From Propionispora vibrioides (GTDB taxonomy: Bacteria > Bacillota > Negativicutes > Propionisporales > Propionisporaceae), in the NCBI RefSeq assembly GCF_900110485.1, contig NZ_FODY01000004.1:124001-188000 (forward strand): DNA of 64,000 nt, written 5' to 3'. Of the stretch, positions 7,651 to 57,695 are shown piece by piece; position 1 is the first letter of the stretch, and the number at the start of each line of letters is the position of its first letter. Both the position numbers and the translations under genes were made by a program. The notes below the pieces were generated by a model. The model saw only the letters and a program-made list of their open reading frames with translations. It was not told the DNA's origin and did not search any database.

Positions 7651-7675
7651 ATAACTACACCTCACGTAATTTCTG

Positions 7676-8236: not shown

Positions 8237-8270
8237 ATAAAATCAACTTCCTCTCTCCATGACACCTTGA

Positions 8271-9839: not shown

Positions 9840-9854
9840 AGTACTTCACACTCC

Positions 9855-11642: not shown

Positions 11643-11655
11643 GAAATAACCACCT

Positions 11656-12153
11656 CTATGCTTTCTGATCAACCAGCATCCGGGATTGAACGCTTTTCCC
11701 GGCCTGGCCCTGCGCCGCATAGACGGGACCGGTGCTGTGTTGTGTCAAAATATTTATGTTATAATCCACATAGGCCATGGCCCGCTGAATCAGCTTGGTA
11801 TTAAGCTCATTCGTCGCTTTAATTTCCTGCAGCGTAACCCTCAACTCATCGCCCAGATGGGATAACTGTTCCGCTATATCGCTACCGGCCAATTCCTTGA
11901 TTTCGGTTAGCGTCAGCTTATCCGTCTGCAGTCCGCTTTTAGCAAGAATATCCTGCGTAATGCCCTCTCTCGCCTTCTCCAGCTTGCCTGCTTGCAGAAT
12001 GAGCTGCTCCTCTTCCTTGGTAATTACCTCCAGATCATTGACTTTACCGGCCACCAAAGCGTCCTTTTTCCGTCTGCCTAGTGCCAGAATGTTGGTATAT
12101 ACCTGCAGCATATCGGTCAGAAGCACCGTTAATTTATTACACAACTCTTCCAC
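11656..12153 (-). CDS. flgN: FlgN-type export chaperone for FlgK/FlgL
   Basis: A 165-residue, almost entirely helical protein with the FlgN family pattern of a long N-terminal coiled coil (LGRRKKDALVAGKVNDLEVI, then the EEEQLILQAGKLEK stretch). Start is GTG 12153 with GGGAGAGA before it. It keeps FlgK and FlgL soluble in the cytoplasm until export. Position flgM-flgN-flgK-flgL is the usual order in Firmicutes (YvyG in Bacillus). Confidence 0.93.
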   Translation of the reverse strand: MEELCNKLTVLLTDMLQVYTNILALGRRKKDALVAGKVNDLEVITKEEEQLILQAGKLEKAREGITQDILAKSGLQTDKLTLTEIKELAGSDIAEQLSHLGDELRVTLQEIKATNELNTKLIQRAMAYVDYNINILTQHSTGPVYAAQGQAGKSVQSRMLVDQKA

Positions 12154-12183
12154 CGCTATTCTCTCCCTAACAATATTTATTGG

Positions 12184-12462
12184 CTAAAAGCCCAGCATCT
12201 TTTCGGCAACCGCCCTGGCATCCACTTCATAAGTGCCGGATTGAATCCGCTCGGACAGAGCATTCACCTTGTCCTGCCTTACGCCGGACATACTTTGCAG
12301 ACTAGACAGATACTGTCCAAACTCCTGCGCATTAGCGGAAAGAATGACTTCATCCTGCGATTTAGTCGCCTCCGACTTTTCTTGTTTAACTCCCTGATTC
12401 AGTTTGTTTTGTTCTCCATATACTTTTACGATACTTTGTACCTGTTTCCCTGAAATAATCAC
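12184..12462 (-). CDS. flgM: Anti-sigma-28 factor FlgM
   Basis: About 92 residues from GTG 12462, which is preceded by GAGGTG at correct spacing; the in-frame extension to 12495 lacks a ribosome site. It starts MIISGKQVQSIVKVYG, the conserved FlgM opening, and ends with the sigma-binding helices (LSERIQSGTYEVDARAVAEK). FlgM holds the flagellar sigma factor inactive until it is exported. The upstream 90 bases hold a CCTTGC/GCAAGG inverted repeat (12491-12524) around a GATAAT -10-like box, so flgM may head its own transcript after the terminator at 12551-12579. Confidence 0.93.
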   Translation of the reverse strand: MIISGKQVQSIVKVYGEQNKLNQGVKQEKSEATKSQDEVILSANAQEFGQYLSSLQSMSGVRQDKVNALSERIQSGTYEVDARAVAEKMLGF

Positions 12463-12550
12463 GCTAACGCACCTCGCACTCCCAATGCCTTGCATTATCT
12501 AAATACTGTAAGTAACGCAAGGTACCAGATTTTCCTCTACATAAGTATCG

Positions 12551-12579
12551 AAAAAAAAAGCAAGGATATTAATCCCTGC
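12551..12579 (-). terminator. Rho-independent terminator after the yvyF-like gene
   Basis: On the minus strand an 8-bp stem (12572-12579 with 12560-12567, one G-U pair, loop TAAT) is followed by nine T. It would separate the yvyF-like transcript from flgM or act as an attenuator between them. Confidence 0.8.
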
Positions 12580-12664
12580 CTAAAATCGTTTATCTGTCAT
12601 TTCCATCCGTTTTAAAAGATTATATCTCATTTTCTCCATGTATCACCTGAATACGGTTTTCCTT

Positions 12665-13063
12665 TTATTTTTTTTCAAGATTGCTGTACATCCGCCCGGC
12701 TTTTTTAAATTCCAGCGATTTCTGCGCTTCCTTTTCCGCTGACTGCTTCATCTGGTTGATGATATTTTTACTACAGGCCGCGCACACCCGTCCCTCCACA
12801 ATCGGAGCACCACAAGCCTCGCAAGCATAACTAATTTCAAAATCGCCCATAAACCGGCCTTTGCGCATCATGTGCAGGATAGTTCTTTCCTTTACGCCCG
12901 TGGCCTCATGAATTTCTTCGATCGAGGCGGCATTGCCGGATTCCCGCAAAAAATCAACGATTTTTATTTCGTCCCGCTCTTCCTGCTCCACGCAAGCCGG
13001 ACACATTCCGGCAGGACTATCCACAAATATTTTTCCGCATTCCGGACAATTTTTCAAGCCCAT
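12665..13063 (-). CDS. YvyF-like flagellar operon protein (TIGR03826 type), zinc ribbons plus HTH
   Basis: 132 residues from ATG 13063, which has AAGGGG before it; a longer in-frame extension runs into the palindromic element at 13096 and is not used. The N-terminal zinc ribbon is CPECGK...CPAC, the middle is a short winged-helix-like segment (IEEIHEATGVKERTILHMMR), and the second zinc ribbon is CEACG...CAAC, with a basic C-terminal tail. In Bacillus the equivalent YvyF precedes flgM and affects flagellar gene expression. DNA or RNA binding is plausible but unproven. Confidence 0.9.
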   Translation of the reverse strand: MGLKNCPECGKIFVDSPAGMCPACVEQEERDEIKIVDFLRESGNAASIEEIHEATGVKERTILHMMRKGRFMGDFEISYACEACGAPIVEGRVCAACSKNIINQMKQSAEKEAQKSLEFKKAGRMYSNLEKK

Positions 13064-40166: not shown

Positions 40167-42392
40167 TCAATTCTTACAACTCACTAACTTACCGTACCCA
40201 TTTGAATACTTTTCAAAAAATCCATTGTTTAAATGATCCATGCTATAATCTGAAATTATTATAGCACTGGAAGCTAGCTGCACCATACGATAAACATTTG
40301 TACCAAAACCCGAATGCCGACCAATAAATCCCTTACTATCAAATAGTAATACTTCAGACTGAACCACCCTGTCGAGCCCAAATAAACCCACTTGTCCAGA
40401 AAACCAGGTACTTTGTTCCTTACCCTGGACTTGAGGTGTGAAATGCACTTCGGTAGAACGGAATTTATTCCTGCTATCTGGTAATGGTGTGTATATATAT
40501 GTGCCAGGATCACGCACTACTTCTTGATCATCTATGCATAATTCTATGCTTAGCTGATCATTATGCCCGTGCCCCCCATTACCATTTTGTCCGACATTAC
40601 CGCATCGTATCGCCAAGTATAAGTCTTTAGACTTATATAAATATAAACCAAAATCTGGATAACTAAAAACCTGTAATCCATCAATAAGATCATTGTTATT
40701 TAAGCTGCTAAAAATTGATACTACAGGTTGACCATAATTTTTTTGCAAGTAAGTCTCCCATTGCTCAAAATTTTTATTAGATAAAATAAAACGATTAAAA
40801 GCATCAGACTGTATCAAGTTCCCTCTAATATGATAGGAAGGTATTCTTATGCCATTCAAGATTTTATTAACTACATATTTCTCCAAGTTATTACTATCAA
40901 CTTTTTGCAAAAAATCTTGACGATTGAACAGTATTCCACCAACGGCCAGGATATGCTGGTGATCGAGAATATTCTCGTCATAATATGTTGCGTCTACAGA
41001 TAAATCTTGATACCCCTTCAAGTTCTCGTATTTATCTACAGCTTGCCCAACTGTCATTTTGGTATATGAAGGCCATAGCTTTAAAAAACGTCCACTGTCA
41101 TTATCACCAAATTGAGGAATCGCCCCATGGGGTTTGGTAATATGCAAAGTAAATTCGCAGGCTTTTTCTAGACGGACCCAGAACCAATCAGGAAATAACT
41201 GCTTATTACTAATATCATACAATTGTTCTGAGACTAGATTAAGTTTCGGTTTTATCCAATGCCCTATATTAGAATAACTGACCAAAGCTTTTTTCTTTTC
41301 CTCTGGCAAACTCAAACAAAGGATAGAGCAATATAGCATAATTTCTGTCGACAAACGATGATAACTCGTTGAAGCTTCAAAATTACTGCCGTCAGGATGA
41401 AATTCATGTTTCATTTCACTGATTAATTCTTGTACAGAAAAGGCTAGCCACGAATCAATTTCCTTAGTAGATTTTAAATATACTGAAACAAATAATAATC
41501 CGGCAATATCAGAAAGATAATGATTAGAACGCAAAGAAGGCGTATATTCCAAATTATTTATAATATGAAAACCGTGATCATAAACAGAAGAAGCAATTAT
41601 GTCTTCGAACTCATTGTCAAACTCCACACCAGCCGCTTTAAATAAGTCATACGCTATTAACCAATTGGCAACTCTGATCCCAACATCCATCGTACACCGC
41701 CAATTAACCCCAAAACGTGGCGGATTGTTAGCGATGAAATCCAAAATTTGATTCCGGTACTCACACAAATACTTATTACGATCGCCCACATTCGTAATCA
41801 TATATGCATATGCTAGCATCACCAAATGTTGCATCCTGGACAATTCCCAGGGTATTTTAATATCTACACCCGGTTTATGCCCATACTTGATATTCATATA
41901 CCAATTTTTTTCCGACCAACGATAGCCTGATTTAAAATCTAATTGCCAATCAATCGGCTCATAATTAACATCAATTAGCGATGCTATTTTTTGTGCTTGT
42001 TTCAAATTGTTTCGAGTAATTCTATTTTTTAAATTCTTTTTATGGCTCAACTTACTATCAGTGTAACAGTAGCCTTCTAAGCCTCTTACCTTTATGCCAT
42101 AAAATACTTTAGTCCATCCAGAACCAAGTAAATCAAAATAATGTTTGTAATAATAATCAGAAATATCCAAAATCATTTTTTTATGATTTTTTAATTCATT
42201 GAGTTCTATTGCAGAAAAATTAAACTTGTTTATATTAATTTTATTATCTTTCTTTATATATGTTGAAAATAATTGATCTTTAAAAAAAAATTTCCTTACC
42301 TTAATATTTCGCCACAATAAATTTATAGCTTTCAGTAATGCTATTTGAAACGGTAATTTTCTCGCTTTATGAATATAATAAAAAAACTTCAT
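40167..42392 (-). CDS. Heparinase II/III family protein
   Basis: About 741 residues from ATG 42392 (AGGTG before it). The N-terminal two thirds form an alpha-helical toroid-like domain (NWRCTMDVGIRVANWLIAYD, then HEFHPDGSNFEASTSYHRLS with the expected His/Tyr). The C-terminal beta domain has GHGHNDQLSIELCIDDQEVV and RDPGTYIYTP. Heparinase II/III enzymes cleave uronic-acid-containing chains by elimination. No signal peptide is seen, so the substrate would be met in the cytoplasm or the protein leaves by another route. It is embedded among glycosyltransferase genes, where such enzymes may trim or control a uronate-containing polymer. Confidence 0.9.
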   Translation of the reverse strand: MKFFYYIHKARKLPFQIALLKAINLLWRNIKVRKFFFKDQLFSTYIKKDNKININKFNFSAIELNELKNHKKMILDISDYYYKHYFDLLGSGWTKVFYGIKVRGLEGYCYTDSKLSHKKNLKNRITRNNLKQAQKIASLIDVNYEPIDWQLDFKSGYRWSEKNWYMNIKYGHKPGVDIKIPWELSRMQHLVMLAYAYMITNVGDRNKYLCEYRNQILDFIANNPPRFGVNWRCTMDVGIRVANWLIAYDLFKAAGVEFDNEFEDIIASSVYDHGFHIINNLEYTPSLRSNHYLSDIAGLLFVSVYLKSTKEIDSWLAFSVQELISEMKHEFHPDGSNFEASTSYHRLSTEIMLYCSILCLSLPEEKKKALVSYSNIGHWIKPKLNLVSEQLYDISNKQLFPDWFWVRLEKACEFTLHITKPHGAIPQFGDNDSGRFLKLWPSYTKMTVGQAVDKYENLKGYQDLSVDATYYDENILDHQHILAVGGILFNRQDFLQKVDSNNLEKYVVNKILNGIRIPSYHIRGNLIQSDAFNRFILSNKNFEQWETYLQKNYGQPVVSIFSSLNNNDLIDGLQVFSYPDFGLYLYKSKDLYLAIRCGNVGQNGNGGHGHNDQLSIELCIDDQEVVRDPGTYIYTPLPDSRNKFRSTEVHFTPQVQGKEQSTWFSGQVGLFGLDRVVQSEVLLFDSKGFIGRHSGFGTNVYRMVQLASSAIIISDYSMDHLNNGFFEKYSNGYGKLVSCKN

Positions 42393-42449
42393 TTTATTCA
42401 CCTTTACTAATTTTCCCATTTTAGAGTACAAATCGAAATTGAATTAATA

Positions 42450-44635: not shown

Positions 44636-45371
44636 TTAAGTCCTCTTTCTTAGCAATAACTAGTATTTCTCTATGTTCAAACCATATATCACAAGCACCT
44701 TCCCCTAATATTTTAAAAAAGAGTCGTAACATCTTTAACAAGATTGGCCGAACAAATCCAAAGATAATTTTTTGTTTTAATGTATTAAGAAAAATATATG
44801 AGGCCGGTACTACTTCTACTTGGTCACCTGAAAAATATAGCCGATACATATCAGCTAAACTTTCCCGAGTATACCCTATCTCATGTGTAAAGTCCATATA
44901 CCGTTCATGATTGCTAAACATCCAATCCATGTTGGGGACTTGCACCAAAGCAACCCCTCCCGGCTGGAGTGCATCATATACTCTCTTAACAAACTCTTCC
45001 TGCCTATCTTTAGGGATGTGTTCCATGACATCCTTTGAAATAATCACATCATATTTTCTATTGCCATCTAAATGATCAAACACATTTGTACTCTCAGCAC
45101 AAAAACCCATATCTTTAGCCATTTTTATATCTTCTAAAGATAAATCAATTCCTTCTACATTAGTAAAGCCATATTTCCGCAAAGCGGAGAGCATATATCC
45201 ACGATTGCACCCGATCTCCAAGATTCCCTCCTCCTTTTTGCGGGAAATATGCGGAAGATAGTGGGTTTTAAATAGATTATCAATAAAATTATTCCGTTGA
45301 TCCCTATTTTCATATAAAAAATCACTTCGTATTGCTTTATATGACTTAAAAATTTTATCTTGTGTATTCAT
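44610..45371 (-). CDS. Class I SAM-dependent methyltransferase
   Basis: About 253 residues from ATG 45371, with GGTGGAGG before it. Motif I is GILEIGCNRGYMLSALRKYG, followed by VEGIDLSLEDIKMAKDMGF, VIISKDVMEHIPKDRQEEFV and LQPGGVALVQVPNMDW. These mark a UbiE/Methyltransf_11-type enzyme acting on a small molecule or sugar hydroxyl. In this setting it probably O-methylates a residue of the glycan. The start overlaps the acyltransferase stop by 4 bases. Confidence 0.93.
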   Translation of the reverse strand: MNTQDKIFKSYKAIRSDFLYENRDQRNNFIDNLFKTHYLPHISRKKEEGILEIGCNRGYMLSALRKYGFTNVEGIDLSLEDIKMAKDMGFCAESTNVFDHLDGNRKYDVIISKDVMEHIPKDRQEEFVKRVYDALQPGGVALVQVPNMDWMFSNHERYMDFTHEIGYTRESLADMYRLYFSGDQVEVVPASYIFLNTLKQKIIFGFVRPILLKMLRLFFKILGEGACDIWFEHREILVIAKKEDLNEKNIGNL

Positions 45372-46339
45372 TGAATACGCCTCCACCAATTAAGCAATGA
45401 GTTTTTCATACTATTTAGTATTAGCTGTCCCCCAAAAAAACTATTAATCGTACCCCCAAAACGGGTTTTAAACAAGCTAACACCTCTTTCCTTGCTGCCA
45501 GTTGGGGCATCAAGTATGATACCTCCAAAATCATAATATAATATATTTTCCCTTTTAAATTTTTTTATTATTTCCCAGTGCAATAGATTTGCCGACCCTG
45601 GTATTGGTTTGTTTTTTGAAGCTCCATGCCAATAAACTGCGTTGTTTTTCGACACTAACATAAAAGCAGCCGCTTGAAAGCATCCTTGATGTACTGCAAA
45701 AAATATACGGCAATTTCCTGTAGCTGCTAATGCCTGATAATGATGTATCAACTCTTGTTTAGCTACACCGGGAATATTAGAACGAGCATACGTTTCCTGA
45801 GATAGATCAAAATATGTGCTTATGGCTTCTACTGACGTATCTTCTACTATCTGTACCCCTTCTTTTACCGCTTTTCGTATAACATTTCTATGTTTAGAAT
45901 GAACCCCTTCAAATAGCTCTTCTTCACTTTTAGTCAAATCTATAATACTACTGCCATACTCATAAATTGGACAGAAACCCAAATCATACAATATCTTTCG
46001 ATTAGTAAATCTTGATAAAGTAATAGAGTAGAATTCAAATTTAAATGGTCTAAACTTTTTTATTATTTCTTTCACCGCAAGGTCTATATATTCTAGATTA
46101 CAATTTGTTGGTTCAGCATTAGCTTGTATATAACCAAAACATTTATATCCTCGATAAAAAACAAGCCACCTAAATACAACTACATTATCTTTTATTATTT
46201 CTATAAAAACAGGCGTCACTTTAGTAGATACTGCAAATGCAGCCTCATACAACTGGGCAGGATTGCCGGTTTTCTGTAAAACGTCATGATTCCAAATAGA
46301 ACTATCTACGTCCATACTTGATTTTAAACAACAATTCAC
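45368..46339 (-). CDS. FemAB/GNAT-like acyltransferase
   Basis: 323 residues with the double-GNAT FemAB pattern: the first half includes VVVFRWLVFYRGYKCFGYIQ, and the second half has HSKHRNVIRKAVKEGVQIVE and a final VYWHGASKNKPIPGSANLLH then YYDFGGI block. FemAB proteins use aminoacyl-tRNA for peptidoglycan bridges; relatives in polysaccharide loci use acyl donors to modify sugars. Here it follows an aminotransferase gene, so acylation of an amino sugar is plausible. GTG 46339 overlaps the aminotransferase stop in GTGA, with GGAG upstream. Confidence 0.88.
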   Translation of the reverse strand: MNCCLKSSMDVDSSIWNHDVLQKTGNPAQLYEAAFAVSTKVTPVFIEIIKDNVVVFRWLVFYRGYKCFGYIQANAEPTNCNLEYIDLAVKEIIKKFRPFKFEFYSITLSRFTNRKILYDLGFCPIYEYGSSIIDLTKSEEELFEGVHSKHRNVIRKAVKEGVQIVEDTSVEAISTYFDLSQETYARSNIPGVAKQELIHHYQALAATGNCRIFFAVHQGCFQAAAFMLVSKNNAVYWHGASKNKPIPGSANLLHWEIIKKFKRENILYYDFGGIILDAPTGSKERGVSLFKTRFGGTINSFFGGQLILNSMKNSLLNWWRRIQ

Positions 46340-47400
46340 AATAGCTTCTCCAGTTTAATTATTTTTTCATCAGTAATAAAATCTAAATCAACTAATAATA
46401 AATGATTTTTAAGATATTCTATATTGCTATTATATTGTCCACTCCACATTGGTTGAAAAGCAGGCCATACTCTACGAGTTTTAATATTAATTTTTCTAAA
46501 TATATCTTCTAGTTTACAAACATTGCTATGCTTGACTACATATTGGGTAAATGTATTACCTTCAAAATCTCGTAAATAAGCTGGTATGATTTTATCTAGT
46601 TTAGAAGCTATCATTTGTCTCTTTTGAATAATATTTTGCAAATTATTTATGGAACTTTCAATATAATTCTTTTGTTTTACAGTCATTCTTGTATCAAAAA
46701 CGGGATAACTACCCTTATTTTGATTATCCATAATTTTGTAAAAATGATTGGGAATGTATATTTTTAATTCCTTTAAAATTTTTATAAAAATCCTAGAGAA
46801 ATATAAATGATAATGAAACATCTTGTCTTCGACATTATTCCGATCTTTTGTAATGGCTGATAAATATTTAAATGTTTCATAGTCGTTAATAAATGAATGG
46901 AAAAAGTTTTTATGTTGTTCCTGGAGCTCATTTGCATGTTCTTTTAACGACAAATCACGAAAATAAATAGCACCTCCGGCGGGATTGTTTAATGATTTTG
47001 AGAAAGAAAATATTGCAATATCTCCAGTATATCCTACTTGTCTACTATTGTCTGTTGCCCCTAGAGAATGAGCACAATCTTCTATATGAATTAGACCGGC
47101 ATTAGTCGAAATCTCTTGTATTTCATAAACACTTTTATTAAACGAACCAAAGTAATGATGTGAAATAATTGCTATTACATCTTTATCTAGCTTAGATTTT
47201 AAATCATTTGTATCTATACCTAAATTGCTTAAATTGACGTTAACAAATAGTGGATATCCACCTGCTTGGACAATCGCTGACGGCACTGTAGTATTACAAG
47301 TAAAGGCTGGCAGTATAACTTTTTTACCTTGAACCCCGATAGATAGCAAAGCTAAATAGAGAGCCGTTCGCCCATATGATGTTAATATAGAATTATTCAT
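46336..47400 (-). CDS. DegT/DnrJ/EryC1/StrS aminotransferase
   Basis: 354 residues. The start MNNSILTSYGRTALYLALLS, ILPAFTCNTTVPSAIVQAGG (PLP phosphate region), IEDCAHSLGA (Asp contact) and the internal aldimine motif FSFSKSLNNPAGG with the PLP Lys are typical. These enzymes aminate keto-sugars bound to nucleotides. The partner dehydratase is not next to it, so the substrate is unclear. Together with the acyltransferase it likely makes an N-acylated amino sugar. Very AT-rich. Confidence 0.92.
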   Translation of the reverse strand: MNNSILTSYGRTALYLALLSIGVQGKKVILPAFTCNTTVPSAIVQAGGYPLFVNVNLSNLGIDTNDLKSKLDKDVIAIISHHYFGSFNKSVYEIQEISTNAGLIHIEDCAHSLGATDNSRQVGYTGDIAIFSFSKSLNNPAGGAIYFRDLSLKEHANELQEQHKNFFHSFINDYETFKYLSAITKDRNNVEDKMFHYHLYFSRIFIKILKELKIYIPNHFYKIMDNQNKGSYPVFDTRMTVKQKNYIESSINNLQNIIQKRQMIASKLDKIIPAYLRDFEGNTFTQYVVKHSNVCKLEDIFRKINIKTRRVWPAFQPMWSGQYNSNIEYLKNHLLLVDLDFITDEKIIKLEKLL

Positions 47401-48641
47401 TGTATGCCTCTTTTAATCAATTTCTCATATTTTACTTTATACAAATAAAGAGCATATAGCATCGAAATAAAACATGCTGTTGCTGCGCCGTATTTACCAA
47501 AGATCGGAGTTAAAAGTATATTGGAGAGTAAACTTACTGCCGTCATCTGGTATGCCATCTTTTTTTGCAGTACTCCATGCCCATTACTTGTCAGCCAAGA
47601 ATTATAAGGTTTATAACCTGCTTGGCACGAGACAGCAGCTACCAAAATGAGTAAAACTATAAAACTTTCTTTAAAATCTCCGCCTAAATAAAAATGAGTA
47701 ATAATAAATCCACCGGAAACCGCAGCTATTACAGAAACAATAATACCATAGTAATTAAAGTTCAAAACTTTTCTTGAAATTTCCTCACTTCCAGCAAAAT
47801 CTCTGAACTTCGAAGAAGCCAAGGCTGTTGAGAAGCTATTTACAGGATTAGCTATAGAAAAAGCCATTGAATATATTCCAACCTCTTTAGCTCCTGCAAA
47901 AAACGATACTAACATTTTATCAATTTGATAAGCAGCCACATCGACAATTCTTCCTAAATACAAGTGTTTCCCGTAGCATTGATTTTCTTGATGTATTCTC
48001 TTTAAATTAATAATTAAATTAGTGAATTTTGGACGTTTCCATAAAACACATCCTAGAAAGGCTGCTAAACACGTACAAGAAAACATCATAGATACCCATA
48101 GCGGTGTTAATTGGTTAATAAAATATAAAACAAAAATGGCAAAAAGAAATAACAACCTCCATAAAACATTGAATACAGACAGTGTTAGAATTCTATTGCA
48201 ACCTTTCATAACCAATTCAAAAAAGAAAGGTAATATAAAAGAAAATGAAACAATGGAAAGAACGCGTAAAATATCACCAATTTTGTCTTGAAAAACTTGA
48301 TCTATAACAAAAGAGATAATAATAATAGTTAAAATATAGACCAACGAAATTAAGCCAGCAATAACCATCAATGCTCCAATAAGTTCTTCTTCCCTATCTT
48401 TTTCTTTGTTTTCCGCTAAAAGTTTAGATCCACTAGCAAAATACCCAAATTCAAAAAATATAGCACAAAAACTCAAGACTGCTGCTGTAAAAGAATAAAG
48501 ACCGAATGCCTGAACACCCATATTCTTTGCTAAAATCATATTGGATACAAATCCAGAGACTAAACCTAGGATTTGCGATATAAATAAACACGCTGTTTGA
48601 CGTGGAGTTTTATTACTTAAAAGCATTTTTATTTTTTCCAC
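47397..48641 (-). CDS. wzx: Wzx-type polysaccharide flippase
   Basis: 414 residues, about 12 hydrophobic helices, of the MATE/MviN-like Polysacc_synt family. The opening LSNKTPRQTACLFISQILGL and first pair of helices (GFVSNMILAKNMGVQAFGLY) are characteristic. It moves undecaprenyl-diphosphate-linked repeat units across the inner membrane. GTG 48641 with GGTGA before it is the likely start (ATG 48626 has none). The stop overlaps the DegT gene start by 4 bases. With Wzy (56505-57695) and the WbaP-like protein it defines a Wzx/Wzy pathway; no Wzz is seen in the window. Confidence 0.9.
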   Translation of the reverse strand: MEKIKMLLSNKTPRQTACLFISQILGLVSGFVSNMILAKNMGVQAFGLYSFTAAVLSFCAIFFEFGYFASGSKLLAENKEKDREEELIGALMVIAGLISLVYILTIIIISFVIDQVFQDKIGDILRVLSIVSFSFILPFFFELVMKGCNRILTLSVFNVLWRLLFLFAIFVLYFINQLTPLWVSMMFSCTCLAAFLGCVLWKRPKFTNLIINLKRIHQENQCYGKHLYLGRIVDVAAYQIDKMLVSFFAGAKEVGIYSMAFSIANPVNSFSTALASSKFRDFAGSEEISRKVLNFNYYGIIVSVIAAVSGGFIITHFYLGGDFKESFIVLLILVAAVSCQAGYKPYNSWLTSNGHGVLQKKMAYQMTAVSLLSNILLTPIFGKYGAATACFISMLYALYLYKVKYEKLIKRGIQ

Positions 48642-48645
48642 TTAA

Positions 48646-50097
48646 TCACCGCTCAACATGCCCAATCCAAGCGGGATGTGGCATAAACTTCAAATTAACA
48701 CTTTTATAATCAATTATGTTTTCCTGATCATTACATATTACATTTAGTTTTGCTTCATCAAACTGTAACTCTGGTCTCCGCATAAGAGCTGAGACTAATT
48801 TCAACTTATTAGGATCAAATCCCATCTGCCAGATACACACATAATCAACAGCAAAGGGGTTTTCTCCACATGCAATATATCCAACATGCTTTTCCAGCGG
48901 CTCCATGGGACCATCACCTTCACCAGCAACGATTCCATCGACTACGGAAAAATAACGCTTCTGTTGCTTATTACGAAGAACGCCCGTTTTATCGCAAAAT
49001 AATAATATGTAGTTTAAATCTAGACACATACGCCAAGTAGTATCATTACCATACCAATCTCCATGCTCTATCAAATTAGCACCTGTTGCTCGGCAATATA
49101 TCTTACGCATCAAAGAAAAAGGTTTGTTGAAAATTTTAAAAAGTCTACGCCCACAAAGAGTATTGGGAGCTAACAACTTATCTCTGGAATAGCGATCCCA
49201 CCAATATAAAATATTAACTACAATACTTTCATTAAAAGGATGCTCATCTCCCCCTTTCACAGAACTGCCTATCCGGTAGTGAGCTAAATAATTCTTATTA
49301 CCATTAATACCAACTAAATTCTTCATATTAATAGTTACACCAGTTTTTTTATGAGTTTTTAACTTGGGAACACTTATGATAACATCAGCTTTAATAGCAG
49401 ACCCAGAAATGAGGTACTTATGACCTTGCATATGATTTTCCACAATAAATCCTCGATCATAATCCGACCCATACAGGCGTTCAATTCCTGATATATTATT
49501 TAAAAAACTCTTATCTTCTAAATCCACAAGTTTATATCCATTCGGATCTCCAGCAATTCCCGTATATGTTTCATCCACAAAACCACTAGGTCCAGATCCA
49601 TAAACATACTTACGAAAATCATATAAAGATACTGGATATCCTTGCGCCTGATACCACTCCACTAATTCTTTCAAACCGTTATAACGTACTATTTTATCAA
49701 AATCAGCATTCCCGTGCGGAGCATCCCCCACAATAATTTCTCCAAGCCCTTTTAAAGCCAATAAAGTATAGTCAACGATTGGACGAATTACTGATCCATG
49801 GGTTACAACGGCCTGAATATTTTCACTATTACCATTATAGTGCAACACTAAATTAGGCTTTATTAAAACAACATTTCCCGGCTTGATAAAATCTCCAAAG
49901 GGATTCCATACATCACTACCAAAATTTTCTCTATCCAATTGTAAATTTTTTATACATTCACGCACGTGTGCGTATATAAGATTAGAGGTATCTATCATGC
50001 TTTTTTTTTCAAATTCAGGGAATATTTCCGGAGGATTAAACGGAGCATTAAAACAGTATTTTACTTGAGGGTTAATATTAACTGATATATTATTCAC
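48646..50097 (-). CDS. DUF362 domain protein in the polysaccharide operon
   Basis: 483 residues. DUF362 features: VVLIKPNLVLHYNGNS near residue 78, VVTHGSVIRPIVDYTLLALK, IIVGDAPHGNADFDKIVRYN, and PKLKTHKKTGVTINMKNLVG near residue 255. The family core usually carries, or is fused to, a ferredoxin cluster; here no C-x2-C-x2-C set is visible. GTG 50097 overlaps the PaaK-like gene. Function is unknown in this setting; a metal- or substrate-binding partner of the PaaK-like enzyme is a guess. Located between that enzyme and Wzx. Confidence 0.85.
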   Translation of the reverse strand: MNNISVNINPQVKYCFNAPFNPPEIFPEFEKKSMIDTSNLIYAHVRECIKNLQLDRENFGSDVWNPFGDFIKPGNVVLIKPNLVLHYNGNSENIQAVVTHGSVIRPIVDYTLLALKGLGEIIVGDAPHGNADFDKIVRYNGLKELVEWYQAQGYPVSLYDFRKYVYGSGPSGFVDETYTGIAGDPNGYKLVDLEDKSFLNNISGIERLYGSDYDRGFIVENHMQGHKYLISGSAIKADVIISVPKLKTHKKTGVTINMKNLVGINGNKNYLAHYRIGSSVKGGDEHPFNESIVVNILYWWDRYSRDKLLAPNTLCGRRLFKIFNKPFSLMRKIYCRATGANLIEHGDWYGNDTTWRMCLDLNYILLFCDKTGVLRNKQQKRYFSVVDGIVAGEGDGPMEPLEKHVGYIACGENPFAVDYVCIWQMGFDPNKLKLVSALMRRPELQFDEAKLNVICNDQENIIDYKSVNLKFMPHPAWIGHVER

Positions 50098-51406
50098 CTT
50101 TGCACCTTCTCACTATATAAAGAGATTTACCCCGGGGACTCTTGACTAAATCCTCGACTTGTTGAACTTTGAACTTTATCAAACCAGCAGAGCGAAATGT
50201 TGCTTCCGCCATCATTTTTTCTTTACGTTGTTTAGAAAGCTTATCCTCACAAATTACTTTAATGATTGCTTCTCCTGGAATCTCTTGATAGTATTGAAAC
50301 CCCAAAACCTCATCAAATGCATCTGAGTGACTATTAATTGCAGCTATAGTAATGTGTTGCCCATCACGCCCCAATAAATACTCGTGAGTCCGTCCAACAA
50401 TATTTTCTATAACTCTGTGATTGCGTCCACACAAACACTTTTCTTTTCCAAGCTCAACTATGTCATCGGTTTTATATCTAATTAATACAGTAGCCTTATT
50501 AACAAAACTTGTGCTAACTAAGTTAGCAATTCCTTCCGTTACGGGGTTATTATCATCATCAAGATATTCTGTATAACTATACTCTTCAAATTCATGTAAT
50601 CTACCTAATTCACACTGACCAATAATGGTCGCCTGTTCACAATTTCCATATTTATTAAACACTTTTACACCTGAAAAAGCTTGGGATATTACCTCTTTTT
50701 GCTCCATGGACACAGTTTCAGATGATAAAAAAATAGCTTTCAAATTAGGCAATATCGGTTTTAAAGAATTATTAATTATCCATTTTGCTAAAAAAAGAAT
50801 AGCAGATGGATATGCTTCGATAAAATTGGGGCAAAAGCTCTCAAGTAACCGGACATATTCTACTGCATTCTTTTCTATCAAATGAAATGCTGATAAAAAT
50901 AATGTATCTGATGTTTTTTGAAATATTCCCTTCTGAATCACTAAGCCTCTTATCCGAGCACGCTTATCAAAAAAATTTATCCTACCCCAATTATATTGTC
51001 TCCACTCATAAGCATAAGTAAGTGGATATGTTACATTTTTTTGTAAATAGAAACCTAGCGGAGTTCCTGTAGAGCCACCAGTTGTAACATACTCTAACTG
51101 ACTAGATTTCATTTTTTTTGAAGTCAAGCCAGCTAGATTATTTCGAACTATCTCCTTTGTTAAAAAAGGAAGACACTTAATTTGGTCGAAATAACGTAAA
51201 CGTTCAGGGTTAAAACCAGTTTGATTAAATATCTCTCTATAGTACCCGCAATTTTCATACGCATATATACACAAATCTTGTAATCTTTTCATTTTTAATG
51301 ACTGTAATTGATCTTGCGAATATTTCTCAGAGCGTTTCAGCAAAAATCTTTCTTTAATAAATACAGGATTTACTAAAAATTTAACTACTGGATTTATTCT
51401 AATCAA
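50090..51406 (-). CDS. PaaK/CapK-like adenylate-forming enzyme
   Basis: 438 residues. The phenylacetate-CoA ligase fold is shown by LEYVTTGGSTGTPLGFYLQ (ATP loop), FLSSETVSMEQKEVISQAF, FNKYGNCEQATIIGQCE and VLIRYKTDDIVEL. The CapK branch occurs in capsule loci and presumably activates a carboxylic acid that is attached to the glycan. TTG 51406 has GGGTGA before it. It overlaps the DUF362 gene by 8 bases, so the two are produced together. Substrate unknown. Confidence 0.9.
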   Translation of the reverse strand: MIRINPVVKFLVNPVFIKERFLLKRSEKYSQDQLQSLKMKRLQDLCIYAYENCGYYREIFNQTGFNPERLRYFDQIKCLPFLTKEIVRNNLAGLTSKKMKSSQLEYVTTGGSTGTPLGFYLQKNVTYPLTYAYEWRQYNWGRINFFDKRARIRGLVIQKGIFQKTSDTLFLSAFHLIEKNAVEYVRLLESFCPNFIEAYPSAILFLAKWIINNSLKPILPNLKAIFLSSETVSMEQKEVISQAFSGVKVFNKYGNCEQATIIGQCELGRLHEFEEYSYTEYLDDDNNPVTEGIANLVSTSFVNKATVLIRYKTDDIVELGKEKCLCGRNHRVIENIVGRTHEYLLGRDGQHITIAAINSHSDAFDEVLGFQYYQEIPGEAIIKVICEDKLSKQRKEKMMAEATFRSAGLIKFKVQQVEDLVKSPRGKSLYIVRRCKGE

Positions 51407-51412
51407 ATGTTT

Positions 51413-53572
51413 TCACCCAATTTCATTGGATTTCAACCTTAATTTTGCCTCTACCTCAAATGCAATTTCCATTGCTTGTACTTGCTGCCACAAAGGTATC
51501 GGCCATTCGCCGCCACTCCGGATAGTTTTCGCCAATATTTCAACTTCTTCATATTGGCCTTTTTCACTTAACTTTGTTTGTAAAGAGTTAATTTTAGTGC
51601 CTACCGCTTGCAATGATTTATAATCATCCATAACCAATACTTTCCCATCAAAAAAGACTTCCATTTGTTCCTTCGGATAATCCTTTGCCCCCAACGCCGT
51701 ATAGGTCAATGTTGCTACAGAACCATCCTCATAAGACACAGTAGCAACAAAATTGTCACTAGGACTGTAATACGCCGTCACAGGCACTATGGATTGTGCC
51801 TGAACATCCCGCACCTTACTATTCGTGAGGAAGTTAAATAAATCATAAATATGACAGGCTTCACCGATATTGCGCCCGCCCCCTTCTTCGGTATGAACCC
51901 AATGATTCAGCGGAATATGCCCTGCATTCATTCGATAGTTAATCATCAGGGGATTTGTCCGCCCCGAAGTCAGTTGATACATCGCTTGAGCATAACGCGA
52001 GAAACGACGATTAAATCCCGTCAATAAAACAGGAGCTGTTTTGTCAGTTGGTAAGGATTCATAAAAGTTTTTAATCTTAACCAATTCTTCATTTGATAGC
52101 GCAAGAGGTTTCTCGACCAATACATGTTTTCCCGCTCTCAATGCCTGCAATGCCATATTCGTATGTAAATTATGCCGGGTAGCAATAACAATTAAATCAA
52201 TATTCGAATCATTTAATAACTCTTGATAATCTGTGGTTGAATATTCTGCTTCAAATTGACTGGCGACTGCTTTCGCGTTATGCCCAGTCCGACTCATAAT
52301 CGCTTTTAAATGAAAATAGTCTGACAACGATTTTATATTAGGTAAATGCATTCCTTTCGCAAAACCACCTGCTCCAGCCAATGCAACCCCTATCTTACCT
52401 TCTACTTTACCTTTTGCTAAAAGATTATAAACTTTTCTGCTAGTAGCCAACTTCTCCCTTGGATACTCTAACAATACGATCATGGGCCTATCCTGACCGC
52501 TTTTTAAAGCTTCATATGCCTCAGTAGCCTGTTCAATCGAATAAGTTTTTTGAATTAGTAGATTAACCTGGATTTTTCCTTCCGAAACAAGCTTTAAATA
52601 TTCCACCATATTACGATTTTCGGTCCAACGGACATATCCAATGGGGTAATCCAATCCCTTTTCTTCATAGTTTTCATCATAGCGCCCCGGACCGTAGGAA
52701 GAAGAAATAAAAAAATCCAGTTCTTTCTGATAGAAGTCAGCACGGTTTAAGTGCAAACCAACGTCACCAACCAGCACGACCCGCCCCTTTCGACGGCACA
52801 TCTTGAAAGCAGTAGACACTACTGTATCTGAAAGGGTCGCTGCTGTTATAATAACACCGTCGGCACCATTTCCATCCGTCAGGCGATGTACCTGCTCAAT
52901 ATCTAAACCATCCTCAGGATGTAATCCATAATCCAAACCCAATTGACAGGCTAGATCAATTCTATTGTGATCTATTTCAACTCCAATAACACGGCAGCCA
53001 TTGGCTTTCAGTAACTGAACTGTCAATTGTCCAATAATCCCCAGTCCAATGACTACAAAAGTCTCTCCCAATGTGGGACTACCTCGACGCACTCCCTGCA
53101 TAGCGATAGCACCAAGTGTCACCGTACTAGCTTTGTCTGAATCCAAACTATCAGGAATTTTCACGACTAAGTTGCGTGGGACAGATATATATTCCGCATG
53201 AAAAGCACACTGTGCACCAGCACAAGCCACATAGTCACCTGGCTTAAGATCGCAAACCCCCTCTCCGCATTCCACAATTACACCAGCTGCGGAATACCCG
53301 GTAGGATTGCCGCTAGAAAGCTTTCCAGCTACTACACTTTTCGTTTTTTCAATTCCCTGTGACATAACCATGTCAAAGACTTTTTTTACTTTTTCCGGCT
53401 GCTGCAAGGCTTTCTTCCATAAAGGTATGCCGCTTCCCTTTACCCCACTTATTTCAGTACCGGCTGAAATGCAAGAATACTCAACTCTGACTAAAACAGT
53501 ACCTGCTGACGCCTGTGGTGCCGGAACCTCTTCTACTACAACTTGCCCTTGTTTTACAATAACTTGTTTCAT
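51413..53572 (-). CDS. Bidomain oxidoreductase: zinc alcohol dehydrogenase plus Gfo/Idh/MocA
   Basis: About 719 residues. Residues 1 to about 375 are a medium-chain dehydrogenase: VLVRVEYSCISAGTEISGVK, GLGIIGQLTVQLLKANGC (NAD loop), VVLVGDVGLH. Residues about 393-719 are a Gfo/Idh/MocA domain: IGVALAGAGGFAKGMHLPNI and HVLVEKPLALSNEELVKIKN. Such fusions recur in polysaccharide loci with heparinase II/III genes; the joint reaction is unknown but implies two redox steps on one nucleotide sugar. ATG 53572 overlaps the wecC stop in ATGA; the frame to 53578 is equally open but starts inside wecC. Confidence 0.93.
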   Translation of the reverse strand: MKQVIVKQGQVVVEEVPAPQASAGTVLVRVEYSCISAGTEISGVKGSGIPLWKKALQQPEKVKKVFDMVMSQGIEKTKSVVAGKLSSGNPTGYSAAGVIVECGEGVCDLKPGDYVACAGAQCAFHAEYISVPRNLVVKIPDSLDSDKASTVTLGAIAMQGVRRGSPTLGETFVVIGLGIIGQLTVQLLKANGCRVIGVEIDHNRIDLACQLGLDYGLHPEDGLDIEQVHRLTDGNGADGVIITAATLSDTVVSTAFKMCRRKGRVVLVGDVGLHLNRADFYQKELDFFISSSYGPGRYDENYEEKGLDYPIGYVRWTENRNMVEYLKLVSEGKIQVNLLIQKTYSIEQATEAYEALKSGQDRPMIVLLEYPREKLATSRKVYNLLAKGKVEGKIGVALAGAGGFAKGMHLPNIKSLSDYFHLKAIMSRTGHNAKAVASQFEAEYSTTDYQELLNDSNIDLIVIATRHNLHTNMALQALRAGKHVLVEKPLALSNEELVKIKNFYESLPTDKTAPVLLTGFNRRFSRYAQAMYQLTSGRTNPLMINYRMNAGHIPLNHWVHTEEGGGRNIGEACHIYDLFNFLTNSKVRDVQAQSIVPVTAYYSPSDNFVATVSYEDGSVATLTYTALGAKDYPKEQMEVFFDGKVLVMDDYKSLQAVGTKINSLQTKLSEKGQYEEVEILAKTIRSGGEWPIPLWQQVQAMEIAFEVEAKLRLKSNEIG

Positions 53573-54840
53573 TGCCACATACCTCGAGTATCGATAATAA
53601 ATTTCTCTTTAAGCATAGTCAAATCCACATCAGAAAAAGCTTTATGATTGACTAGCAGCACAACAATATCGGCCTCATGAATAGCGGTCATCGTTGAAGA
53701 AAGCTGAACATTTTCATTCTCTCTAAGTTGTTCTGGTAATTGCGTAACATGGGGCTCAACAATCAAAATCCGATAGGAAAGATTTTCAGACAACTTGGTA
53801 ACAATTTGAACCGCAGGACTCTCCCTTAAATCATCAACATCCGGTTTAAATGCCAAGCCCAAACATGCAATAACCGGCTTTTTAAATCTATCACTTAAAG
53901 TTATAATTTTATTAACAACATGCTGAGGCTTAAAATCGTTCACTTCTCTAGCCGTACGTATTAACTTTGATTTTTGTGGCACTGCATCCACAATAAACCA
54001 CGGATCAACAGCAATACAATGCCCACCTACACCTGGACCGGGTTGCAATATATTTACTCTTGGATGACGATTGGCTAGTTTAATAAGTTCCCATACGTTA
54101 ATATCCATATCCTCGCAAATAAGCGAAAGCTCATTGGCAAAGGCAATATTCACATCACGAAAGGCATTCTCCGTTAATTTAGACATTTCCGCTGTGCGTG
54201 AATCAGTTAACAATAATTCACCTTTTACAAACTTCTGATACAGCTCTTTAGTTTTTTGAGCCGACCTTTTTTCGATTCCCCCGATAATACGGTCATTCTC
54301 AACTAGCTCACGCAAAATCTGTCCTGGAAGTACACGTTCCGGACAATGGGCTAGATATACAGTTTGATTCTGCTCACCATTTAATACAACGCCTCGATTG
54401 GCAATACATAAATCGGGACGAATTTCTCTTAACCACTCACCAATTCTTTCAGTGGTTCCTACCGGACTGGTTGACTCCAAAATGATTAAATTGCCTAATT
54501 CCATCAAAGGAGCAATTGTTCTTACGGCATGCTGAATATACGATAAGTCCGGTTTATGCCCATCTGTAAAAGGTGTCGGAACAGCTATAATAAAAACATC
54601 AGCCCTTTGAGGTTCGTAAAAGGCTCTTAACCTACCACTTTGTACCGCCGCCTTTACCATTACATCAAGATCTGGTTCATAGATGTGAACCCGTCCACGA
54701 TTAATCATGTCTACAGTTTGTTCATTTACATCTACACCATATACCTCAAATCCTTTTGTCGCTAATAAGCTTGCTGTTGGCAACCCTATATATCCTAAAC
54801 CAATCACACATATTTTTTCTGTGTATAACTTTGTATTCAT
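53569..54840 (-). CDS. wecC: UDP-N-acetyl-D-mannosamine dehydrogenase
   Basis: About 423 residues. ICVIGLGYIGLPTASLLATK is the NAD loop. The stretch LAHCPERVLPGQILRELVEN, then SRTAEMSKLTENAFRDVNIA and NILQPGPGVGGHCIAVDPWF with the catalytic Cys, follows enterobacterial WecC almost word for word. It oxidises UDP-ManNAc to UDP-ManNAcA. The epimerase WecB that makes UDP-ManNAc is not in the window. ATG 54840 has TAGGTTG before it. It lies between the WbaP-like gene and the bidomain dehydrogenase. Confidence 0.95.
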   Translation of the reverse strand: MNTKLYTEKICVIGLGYIGLPTASLLATKGFEVYGVDVNEQTVDMINRGRVHIYEPDLDVMVKAAVQSGRLRAFYEPQRADVFIIAVPTPFTDGHKPDLSYIQHAVRTIAPLMELGNLIILESTSPVGTTERIGEWLREIRPDLCIANRGVVLNGEQNQTVYLAHCPERVLPGQILRELVENDRIIGGIEKRSAQKTKELYQKFVKGELLLTDSRTAEMSKLTENAFRDVNIAFANELSLICEDMDINVWELIKLANRHPRVNILQPGPGVGGHCIAVDPWFIVDAVPQKSKLIRTAREVNDFKPQHVVNKIITLSDRFKKPVIACLGLAFKPDVDDLRESPAVQIVTKLSENLSYRILIVEPHVTQLPEQLRENENVQLSSTMTAIHEADIVVLLVNHKAFSDVDLTMLKEKFIIDTRGMWQ

Positions 54841-54872
54841 ACAAATCAACCTATCTATTTTATTTAATATGC

Positions 54873-56348
54873 TTAATAAGCACCTTTACGTTTTAACACA
54901 ATACCTACCGTTTTTATTAATAAGATAATATCCAACCATAACGACCAATTGCGAACATACCAAGAATCCATCTCAACCCGTTCAGAATACCCTACGTCAT
55001 TCCGGCCACTCACTTGCCATATGCCGGTAATACCCGGACGTACCAAATAATAATCGTTAATATACTTTCCATATCGTTCTACTTCAACATCAACTATTGG
55101 ACGCGGACCAACCAGACTCATTTCACCTTTTAACACATTAAGAAATTGTGGCAATTCGTCTAAACTGGTTTTCCGCAAAAACCGCCCTATTTTAGTAACA
55201 CGTGGGTCGTCTTTTAACTTAAAGTCCCGTTCCCATTCTTCCCGTGCTGCAGGATTATCCCGAAGGTATTGTTCTAGTACCTCGCGTGAATTATTCACCA
55301 TTGTCCTAAATTTATAACAAGGAAATTTTTTCCCTTTATACCCTACGCGCTTATGGGCAAAAATTACCGGACCAGGTGAATCTAGATAGATAATTACACC
55401 TATCAAAAAACAAAGCGGCGCAACCAAAGCAACGCCAATAATAGTGCAGAAACAATCAAATAGCAATTTTAAAGCTCGATTATGGATTTGACTCAAATTG
55501 TTTTTTATTCTTAACAAGACAGTTTTTTCATTAAACAGTGTATCCAATTCCATACTTCCTACCGGTACACCCAACAAATCCGGTACAAAGGTAACATGAT
55601 TAACATAGGGTTGCAAACGATATACCAAATCCAGTAATTCTTCCCGTATTAATCCAGGAGCCGCAATCAACACATGTTTGACGCCTGCATTTTGTACGAT
55701 TGTCTCTGCTTGCGCAAAAGTACCGAGAACCGGATATCGTCCTGCCACACAGCTCTTTTGTGGTTGGTCTTCTATCAGTCCTACAATTTTATATCCCGAG
55801 CCGCCATTTTTTCTAAAAGATTCTAATAAAAGTTCTGCTGTTTTACCTGCTCCAACAAGAATAGTCGGCGCTTGCAGTGCTCCAATATTCATAACCATTT
55901 TTTTAAAGAAATAACGTCCAATTGCCAAATATCCGAAGCTAAAAAACCATAGCAACACAGTAAAAATGCGAGATACCTCTTTGACCGATCCACTAAAAAA
56001 CAATACAACCAAGGTCAGTAACATAGCATACAAGCTCGCTTTAAATAACCGAGCCGCCTGCTGCCAAAAATATAATTTGTTAATATATTTTCTATCAAAA
56101 TGCAAAAACAGCATAAACGCTGCTGGAATAATAACATAAATAAATACGTCAGGCACTATAAGATTGTCGTGAAGCAGAGGAATCAACTTGGCTCTTATGA
56201 AGAAAGCTGTCAAAGCAGCAGCAACAATCGCCAAGTAATCCATTAAGATAAAAGCCACTGATATAAAAAAAGATCTTAAATTATCCCAGGAAAGGGAACT
56301 CATCATTGACGGATTTACTCTAATAGTCGTATAACTTTGGTTATCCAT
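54873..56348 (-). CDS. WbaP-like undecaprenyl-phosphate sugar phosphotransferase
   Basis: 491 residues. Four to five N-terminal helices (about 30-135), a nucleotide-binding-like middle domain (IGALQAPTILVGAGKTAELL), a re-entrant helix near 290-330 and the C-terminal bacterial sugar transferase domain: KRVGYKGKKFPCYKFRTM, DDPRVTKIGRFLRKTSLDEL, GEMSLVGPRPIVDVEVERYG, YLVRPGITGIWQVSGRND. It starts the repeat unit by moving a sugar-1-phosphate (often galactose or glucose) onto undecaprenyl phosphate. GGGAG precedes the ATG. First gene after the 156-base gap behind wzy; a leader with a TTATTG-N17-TATAAA promoter-like pair is visible. Confidence 0.94.
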   Translation of the reverse strand: MDNQSYTTIRVNPSMMSSLSWDNLRSFFISVAFILMDYLAIVAAALTAFFIRAKLIPLLHDNLIVPDVFIYVIIPAAFMLFLHFDRKYINKLYFWQQAARLFKASLYAMLLTLVVLFFSGSVKEVSRIFTVLLWFFSFGYLAIGRYFFKKMVMNIGALQAPTILVGAGKTAELLLESFRKNGGSGYKIVGLIEDQPQKSCVAGRYPVLGTFAQAETIVQNAGVKHVLIAAPGLIREELLDLVYRLQPYVNHVTFVPDLLGVPVGSMELDTLFNEKTVLLRIKNNLSQIHNRALKLLFDCFCTIIGVALVAPLCFLIGVIIYLDSPGPVIFAHKRVGYKGKKFPCYKFRTMVNNSREVLEQYLRDNPAAREEWERDFKLKDDPRVTKIGRFLRKTSLDELPQFLNVLKGEMSLVGPRPIVDVEVERYGKYINDYYLVRPGITGIWQVSGRNDVGYSERVEMDSWYVRNWSLWLDIILLIKTVGIVLKRKGAY

Positions 56349-56504: not shown

Positions 56505-57695
56505 CTACTTACTTAATTCATCCTTTTTTGCTAGGAAATCTAAATTTATCCCCGAACAACTAAGCCCTAAAAGGAACCAGTACATACGGGTTACCGCGGA
56601 ATTACCCGCGTTATACTCGGTGAAACCTTGTAATAAAAGACTAATAGTAACTAAAAAAATTGCTAATCCCCATAAATCTTTACGCTTAGAATAGCAGGTA
56701 TGGGCATAAAACAAAATATACCCAAATAAATATGTGAAACCCAAAAAGCCAACAATCCCTCTATCAGCCAAAACCTGCAAAAAATTATTATGTGCATGGC
56801 TTAATTTGGGTTCTTTAGCGTTCGGAGATATATATTGTTCTTTGTAGGCCTTCTCATAGTTACCGAGCCCCACTCCGGTGATAGGATGATCCAAAAACAT
56901 ATTCCATGCACTATGCCATATCAATAATCGCTCTGCATTAGATTGAAATTTATCGTCGTCAATAGTATCGATTCTATGTTTTAAAGAAGGACTGTGAAAA
57001 GCGATTATTCCTATAATCACGAATAAGGTAAACATTCCAAGTAGAATCTTGGGTTTTTTCTTGATATTAAGAAATCCGTAGAACAATAATGTTAATATAA
57101 CAGCAATCCACGCTCCTCTTGTCCCGTTATAGATTAAAGCAACTGTGGAAAAAATTAGAGCCATCCCAAAAACGATACGCCATCTCTTAGAAACCTCTCG
57201 ATCTTCAACAAAAAAAACCAGGATTAAAGGTATCATTTGCAATAAATATCCGGCTAAAGTCATTGGATGTTCACTAAATGCAAGCGCCCTATAATTACCA
57301 TGTATGCCTTGCCACATCGCACACACATCGGCAATAAACAAAGAAATAACCATAGCAATAAGTATATTGAATAATTGCCGTCGTTCCTTGACAAAACCTA
57401 TTACCAGAACAAATGGAAGCACCATACGTAATAACAAGGTTACTAATTCACCAATACCATTAAATGGCTGCACCGAAAAAGGTATTGACAAAAAGCCCGT
57501 CAGGAAAAACAGAATAATTGCCCTCTTTAATTTTGGATCTACAGTAAAAAGCAAAGGTTGCTTAACATGACGGATAATCGCACATAGAGCTGCAATGTAC
57601 AAAAATCCCGCTCCTATTTCCTTAAAAGTACTTGAGAACAGCGCATAAAATAACAATAGGTAATAAGCTGCATTATCTATGGTTGTAATCTTCAC
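56505..57695 (-). CDS. O-antigen polymerase/ligase family protein (Wzy-like)
   Basis: 396 residues with about 10-11 transmembrane helices. The Wzy_C/WaaL signature lies in ILVFFVEDREVSKRWRIVFG then VALIYNGTRGAWIAVILTLL, followed by the large periplasmic loop with FLDHPITGVGLGNYEKAY and the SHAHNNFLQVLADRGIVGFL motif. It either polymerises the flipped repeat units (Wzy) or ligates glycan to lipid A core (WaaL); the place next to the initiating transferase favours Wzy. GTG 57695 has AGAGGAGT before it. The 156 bases to the WbaP-like gene contain an unused GGAGGG site. Confidence 0.92.
   Translation of the reverse strand: MKITTIDNAAYYLLLFYALFSSTFKEIGAGFLYIAALCAIIRHVKQPLLFTVDPKLKRAIILFFLTGFLSIPFSVQPFNGIGELVTLLLRMVLPFVLVIGFVKERRQLFNILIAMVISLFIADVCAMWQGIHGNYRALAFSEHPMTLAGYLLQMIPLILVFFVEDREVSKRWRIVFGMALIFSTVALIYNGTRGAWIAVILTLLFYGFLNIKKKPKILLGMFTLFVIIGIIAFHSPSLKHRIDTIDDDKFQSNAERLLIWHSAWNMFLDHPITGVGLGNYEKAYKEQYISPNAKEPKLSHAHNNFLQVLADRGIVGFLGFTYLFGYILFYAHTCYSKRKDLWGLAIFLVTISLLLQGFTEYNAGNSAVTRMYWFLLGLSCSGINLDFLAKKDELSK

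Follow-up and report, generated by a model that had tools for sequence, protein, structure and literature searches.

A CapK-DUF362 gene pair of bacterial polysaccharide loci and the likeness of its DUF362 protein to lactate racemase

Background

Lactate racemase (LarA) is a nickel enzyme in which Lys184 carries the nickel-pincer nucleotide (NPN) and His200 binds the nickel. Equivalents of the NPN lysine and the nickel histidine have been described in LarA_Sp, and LarA enzymes with a single catalytic histidine are known (PMC12611868). In about 15% of surveyed genomes larB, larE and larC occur without larA, and the proteins that use NPN in these genomes have yet to be identified (PMC11796402). 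The Pfam clan CL0471 unites DUF362 with DUF2088/LarA (PMC11770544); the paper in question mentions both NPN and DUF362, the latter merely as an outgroup, and the open literature searched yielded no other paper mentioning both, and none on DUF362 with PaaK or heparinase. The DUF362 protein considered here is encoded in a stretch of 64,000 nucleotides from Propionispora vibrioides (NCBI RefSeq assembly GCF_900110485.1, contig NZ_FODY01000004.1, positions 124,001 to 188,000), the whole of which is referred to as the window. Its gene (48646-50097, minus strand, 483 amino acids; PF04015, 8.8e-29) overlaps by 8 bp that of a PaaK/CapK-like adenylate-forming ligase, hereafter CapK (50090-51406, minus strand, 438 amino acids), and a gap of 6 bp separates the latter from the gene for a bidomain oxidoreductase (51413-53578, minus strand, 721 amino acids), in which a Zn-type medium-chain dehydrogenase/reductase (MDR) domain (PF00107, 1.9e-20) is combined with a GFO_IDH_MocA domain (PF01408, 1.9e-25). 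An earlier note, made from the letters of the window, had described these three open reading frames as a tight module, and their strand, spacing and identities are borne out by Pfam, PDB and NCBIfam matches; of the span that it gave, 48646-53572, the start is correct and the end lies 6 bp short of that of the reading frame.

The DUF362 protein and LarA

On the evidence of structural modelling the DUF362 protein of the window looks like a relative of LarA, and this is the most informative point of the analysis, one that is absent from the earlier note. The reading favoured here, with a probability of roughly 0.45, is that the protein would be an NPN enzyme isomerising a 2-hydroxy or sugar acid, and that CapK would activate this acid for a polysaccharide. 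When an AlphaFold (AF2) model of the protein, with a predicted local distance difference test score (pLDDT) of 93.4, was compared with the PDB using Foldseek, the best 17 matches were all LarA-type NPN enzymes, with E values from 6e-6 to 2.5e-2, and the next unrelated match followed at 0.04; the topmost were single-histidine LarA-like enzymes released in 2025. Comparison of hidden Markov models (HMM-HMM) connected the window subfamily with the ferredoxin-type DUF362 proteins (E 1.9e-30) and these in turn with LarA (E 1e-5), His174 and Lys184 of LarA falling in register with a conserved His and Lys. Residue conservation was counted over 67 sequences of the window subfamily, in which 35 positions are invariant, including K245, K247, H249, K251, K259, K268 and H273. 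Three of these, H249, K259 and H273 (67/67 in each case), correspond respectively to the catalytic His174, the NPN-binding Lys184 and the nickel ligand His200, the last of these matches resting on spacing only (H174-10-K184-16-H200 in LarA, H-10-K-14 to 16-H in the DUF362 types).

In searches with the sequence itself PF04015 was the only family model matched at E<0.01, Lar_N/DUF2088 not being matched, and a PDB sequence search with the DUF362 protein returned nothing credible, while one with a DUF2088-like protein (L110) returned nothing. A ferredoxin role was considered for the window subfamily and rejected, as its members have no CxxCxxC clusters. Other DUF362 types (L111, L113, L114, L116 and L150-L166), two of them with ferredoxin clusters and one without, all have a His-Lys-His pattern with the spacing seen in LarA, and NPN binding, judged by this pattern, may extend to the whole DUF362 family.

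Genes for the NPN cofactor

One relative of the window gene lies in a run of genes for NPN synthesis. In a metagenome-assembled genome of Sulfuritalea (locus L029) larE (7606-8421), larB (8463-9131), larC (9124-9945), DUF362 (ending at 11455) and CapK (11475-12857) follow one another with the same orientation. Each of larE, larB and larC scores above its NCBIfam cut-off, and the genome contains no match to Lar_N, the LarA domain, and no second LarC. A search of 399 genomes of the same order gave no further member of this DUF362 subfamily, and the five genes may therefore have arrived together. A family with the cofactor lysine and the nickel histidine, encoded beside larE, larB and larC in a genome that gives no LarA match, is a direct candidate for an NPN user.

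Fifteen of the genomes that carry DUF362 give no LarA match, and LarC is present in 13 of them. In a set of 14 control genomes no Lar_N match was obtained for Synechococcus elongatus or Haloferax volcanii, both of which have LarC and DUF362. Counts of DUF362 of any type against LarC in the sample of the window's class were 137 genomes with both, 15 with DUF362 only, eight with LarC only and 20 with neither (Fisher p 3e-11). The genome-wide co-occurrence in this sample was rejected as proof, since it is confounded by kinship and by LarA itself and the LarC baseline in Planctomycetota is as high as among the carriers of DUF362.

A number of observations weigh against an NPN-dependent DUF362 protein. 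The direct HMM-HMM match between the window subfamily and LarA is weak (E 0.011) and the template modelling (TM) scores to LarA structures are low, at 0.2-0.3, and it is therefore the intermediate family, the 3Di matches and the clan that carry the case for homology. Low TM-scores are to be expected if the two domains of the model are turned differently, and the likeness to the two-domain fold of LarA carried by the 17 best matches is one at the level of fold and not a fine superposition. Only one of the two catalytic histidines of LarA has an invariant counterpart, H249; the position of His108 is occupied by Gln in 55 of the 67 sequences and by His in the window protein and four others. The run of lar genes with DUF362 is a single case, from a metagenome-assembled genome, in which LarC is short and its C-terminal domain not detectable, and no lar genes were found near the other DUF362 loci examined. 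A Planctomycete genome of 6.5 Mb in a single contig (G200, CP070782.1, locus L063) has a DUF362 gene with the triad and a LarA match, and no LarC match. LarC is found in 29 of 35 DUF362 genomes, which is no commoner than in Planctomycetota at large (156/197, 79%). It is conceivable, if unlikely, that DUF362 has the LarA fold without NPN, its part in handling the adenylate made by CapK being one of redox, binding or scaffolding; the loss of His108 and the Planctomycete gene without LarC would fit such a role, and the ferredoxin domains of many DUF362 proteins suggest other chemistry for the wider family, but the invariance of the lysine and both histidines, the similar spacing in three other DUF362 types and the one run with larE, larB and larC, in a genome that gives no LarA match, all speak against it.

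The CapK-DUF362 pair

CapK has no Pfam match, but its closest relative in the PDB is PaaK-like (4r1l, 3.4e-25), NCBIfam models for PaaK and F390 synthetase match it below their cut-offs, and its structural model has the PaaK fold. The adenylation residues of the PaaK family (P-loop, Tyr-Gly-x-x-Glu, Arg-Tyr...Asp and C-terminal Lys) are complete in CapK as T109, G111, Y253, E257, R310, Y311, D315 and K427, and at least 90% of the sequences aligned at these positions retain them. Its structural relatives include CoA ligases, a PaaK-like 2-hydroxyisobutyryl-CoA ligase and other PaaK-family AMP ligases, and because they are so mixed the acceptor cannot be read from the sequence.

A scan of 84,980 genomes with an alignment of the window DUF362 gave 80 loci, and these were searched with profiles built from the window genes. 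The loci are spread over Planctomycetota, Myxococcota, Bacteroidota/Ignavibacteria, Chloroflexota, Acidobacteriota, Pseudomonadota, Verrucomicrobia, Nitrospirota and others, the closest named relatives being in Mitsuokella and Selenomonas. CapK is present in 69 of the 80 and adjoins DUF362 in 66 of these, where about 15 would be expected with random placement among the neighbouring genes. It follows DUF362 in 35 cases and precedes it in 30, and as the two orders are about equally common the association is not that of one frozen arrangement. Pairwise identities of DUF362 and CapK are correlated (r=0.85, 43 loci, 0/2000 permutations), with a contribution from shared ancestry. CapK and DUF362 form a core pair, a two-gene cassette that recurs across many phyla. 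Four more distant relatives of the DUF362 gene lie in loci without CapK (L014 and L015 among them), mostly glycan loci. Genes for exosortase (EpsH) and DUF3485 lie close to several of the DUF362-CapK loci (L059:18129-18902, L089:15563-16477), linking some of them to PEP-CTERM/exosortase polysaccharide systems, and a conserved protein of about 540 amino acids with no Pfam match recurs in some 8-10 of them (e.g. L037:11410-12984).

The bidomain dehydrogenase, by comparison, is a frequent but optional neighbour, found in 33 of the 80 loci and absent from 47, and the heparinase gene occurs in 15. The three genes are associated above chance, but the view that they are one obligatory unit is not supported by the comparison of 69 loci with CapK and 33 with the bidomain gene: the independent distribution that was to have refuted it holds for the bidomain and heparinase genes, and does not hold for CapK and DUF362. 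That the three, with the heparinase, constitute one dedicated module making and attaching a single unusual acid now appears very unlikely. They are contiguous in 16 of the 80 loci, in two orders, and the identities of DUF362 and the bidomain protein are closely correlated (r=0.97, 18 loci); set against this are the 47 loci without the bidomain gene, the occurrence of CapK with the bidomain gene and without DUF362 in L143, L144 and L145 (with one intervening gene in L145) and, in a genome of the window's own genus described below, the loss of CapK and DUF362 together with retention of the bidomain gene. DUF362 and the bidomain gene occur without CapK in six loci, and L147 has CapK without either. 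Among 180 genomes of the window's class six have close relatives of the bidomain gene, five of them with CapK adjacent or one gene away, and two of these five also carry this DUF362. In the MDR domain of the bidomain protein conserved S35 and S38 stand at the expected zinc-ligand positions, which suggests that the domain is probably zinc-free, and in the Gfo/Idh/MocA domain EKP (489-491) and His576 are conserved. The bidomain dehydrogenase would be a separate step from CapK-DUF362.

Replacement by an asparagine-synthase-type gene

A second genome of the window's genus (G009; locus L146, G009:C23:20001-40000) has a syntenic operon, 82-84% identical in DNA sequence along two long blocks, in which a single gene with GATase and Asn_synthase domains (8437-10413) takes the place of CapK and nearly all of DUF362. 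Homology resumes at 48708 and 51459 of the window, and the segment exchanged is 48709-51458 (minus strand). G009 still has about 60 bp of the DUF362 3' end, lying before the Wzx gene, and since this remnant persists the DUF362 state is the older one there. The bidomain, UDP-ManNAc dehydrogenase, flippase, transferase and heparinase genes are kept, so that CapK and DUF362 were lost jointly and the bidomain gene was not lost with them. Elsewhere DUF362 adjoins an AsnB gene that lies at the edge of a contig (L060, L030), an AsnB-CapK fusion protein (L023:11461-14622, L039:5342-8827), a TupA-like ATP-grasp protein (L014) or an Asn_synthase-domain protein (L015). Taken with CapK itself, these neighbours indicate that carboxylate-activating enzymes are the recurring partners of DUF362.

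The replacement lends real support to another explanation, in which the pair would modify the polymer's own uronic carboxyl group (e.g. of ManNAcA): CapK would form a uronyl-adenylate and DUF362, with or without NPN, would assist in its conversion to a substituted amide or an ester, a step parallel to the amidation carried out by asparagine-synthase-type enzymes. The AsnB-type gene replaces exactly CapK and DUF362 in an operon that keeps the UDP-ManNAc dehydrogenase, the AsnB, fusion, Asn_synthase and TupA-like neighbours just mentioned are in keeping with it, and the minimal locus of Selenomonas ruminis (L018) has a UDP-ManNAc dehydrogenase and no other acid-making or acyltransferase gene. 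However, a UDPG_MGDP-type dehydrogenase lies within 10 kb in only about six of the 80 loci, a ring uronate offers no free 2-hydroxyl for LarA chemistry, and the AsnB-CapK fusions argue against AsnB and CapK being simple alternatives, and on balance this explanation is considered rather unlikely. The Selenomonas locus is also awkward for the isomerisation of a 2-hydroxy or sugar acid, as it has no obvious acyltransferase or amino-sugar gene, and its gene content leaves open the route by which an acid would be attached.

The polysaccharide operon

A Wzx/Wzy-type polysaccharide operon occupies the minus strand of the window between about 34 and 62 kb, and these surroundings of the three genes, with a match of one gene product to PF16889 and PF07940, agree with the earlier description of a glycan operon containing a heparinase-like gene. 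Upstream of the bidomain gene, and overlapping it by 10 bp, is a gene for a WecC-like UDP-ManNAc dehydrogenase (53569-54849), found also in every related Negativicutes locus examined, followed by those for a WbaP-type initiating sugar-phosphate transferase (54873-56348) and a Wzy-type polymerase/ligase (Wzy_C; 56505-57695). On the other side a Wzx-type flippase (47397-48641) is separated from DUF362 by 4 bp, and beyond it are a DegT-type sugar aminotransferase (46336-47400) and a FemAB/GNAT-type acyl or aminoacyl transferase (45368-46339), all on the minus strand. Several GT4 glycosyltransferases, a methyltransferase, a polysaccharide deacetylase-like protein and rml-type genes are also encoded. 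The heparinase II/III-like protein (40167-42431, minus strand) has no evident signal peptide and is encoded in a biosynthetic operon, and its gene is present in all nine related Negativicutes loci examined (9/9); a cytoplasmic lyase or epimerase role is conceivable for it.

Proposed function

If DUF362 belongs, as an NPN-carrying member, to the wider LarA superfamily, Lys259 would bond the cofactor, His273 would complete the nickel site and His249 would act as acid/base. By transferring a hydride to and from the alpha carbon the enzyme would set the stereochemistry of a 2-hydroxy or sugar acid; CapK would convert the acid into an acyl-adenylate and then perhaps a thioester, and the activated acid would be put on the glycan or a precursor as an ester or amide. 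The CapK-DUF362 cassette would then be a tailoring step in polysaccharide assembly, and the bidomain dehydrogenase, the UDP-ManNAc dehydrogenase and the heparinase-like protein would have separate functions in the operon. The analysis establishes the linkage, the predicted fold, the conserved triad and, in one relative, the run with larE, larB and larC; NPN binding, the reaction, its substrate and the attachment site are inferred. The making and attachment of an unusual acid or sugar acid, suggested in the earlier note, is still the best class of function, though not by one fixed trio.

We consider it somewhat probable that the DUF362 family as a whole consists of nickel-pincer enzymes, some of them being the NPN users other than LarA that are sought in genomes with NPN synthesis and no LarA, and that the window subfamily brings organonickel chemistry to surface polysaccharide synthesis. 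If so, a cofactor could be assigned to a very widespread family of unassigned function, and an unexpected chemistry would enter the tailoring of a polysaccharide. The broader class of fold is already known, but as far as the open literature searched goes there is no description of DUF362 proteins that combine the NPN residues with a run of lar genes and, in polysaccharide loci, with an adenylating enzyme as recurrent partner.

Comparison with known systems

A 2-hydroxy acid as a glycan substituent has a precedent in the tetronate of Vibrio cholerae O1 (PMC3441752). The likeness to the tetronate pathway (WbeL) is one of working, a hydroxy acid being activated there to acylate a sugar of the cell surface; membership is not claimed, and a DUF362 or LarA-like partner has not been described there. 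The AsnB-type amidotransferases of O-antigen and polysaccharide loci occupy the same operon slot as CapK-DUF362 in the sister genome and are sometimes fused to CapK, but have another fold and use glutamine nitrogen. With the PaaK family (phenylacetate-CoA ligase, the AjiA1/NatL2/ClxA type and 2-hydroxyisobutyryl-CoA ligase) CapK shares the fold, the adenylation motifs, conserved Cys/His residues and the C-terminal lysine, and it differs in its identity of only about 20% and its polysaccharide context. The LarA superfamily (DUF2088/Lar_N), which includes lactate, malate and gluconate racemases and epimerases as well as the single-histidine LarA_Sp and LarA_Bw (9q3k, 9q3j), has in common with DUF362 the predicted fold, the equivalents of the NPN lysine, the nickel-ligand histidine and His174, the Pfam clan and, once, a place beside larE-larB-larC. 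The situation in LarA_Sp and LarA_Bw is the reverse of that in DUF362, which keeps the equivalent of His174 and loses His108, and DUF362 further differs from the superfamily in forming another Pfam family and in being encoded in polysaccharide operons beside an adenylating ligase.

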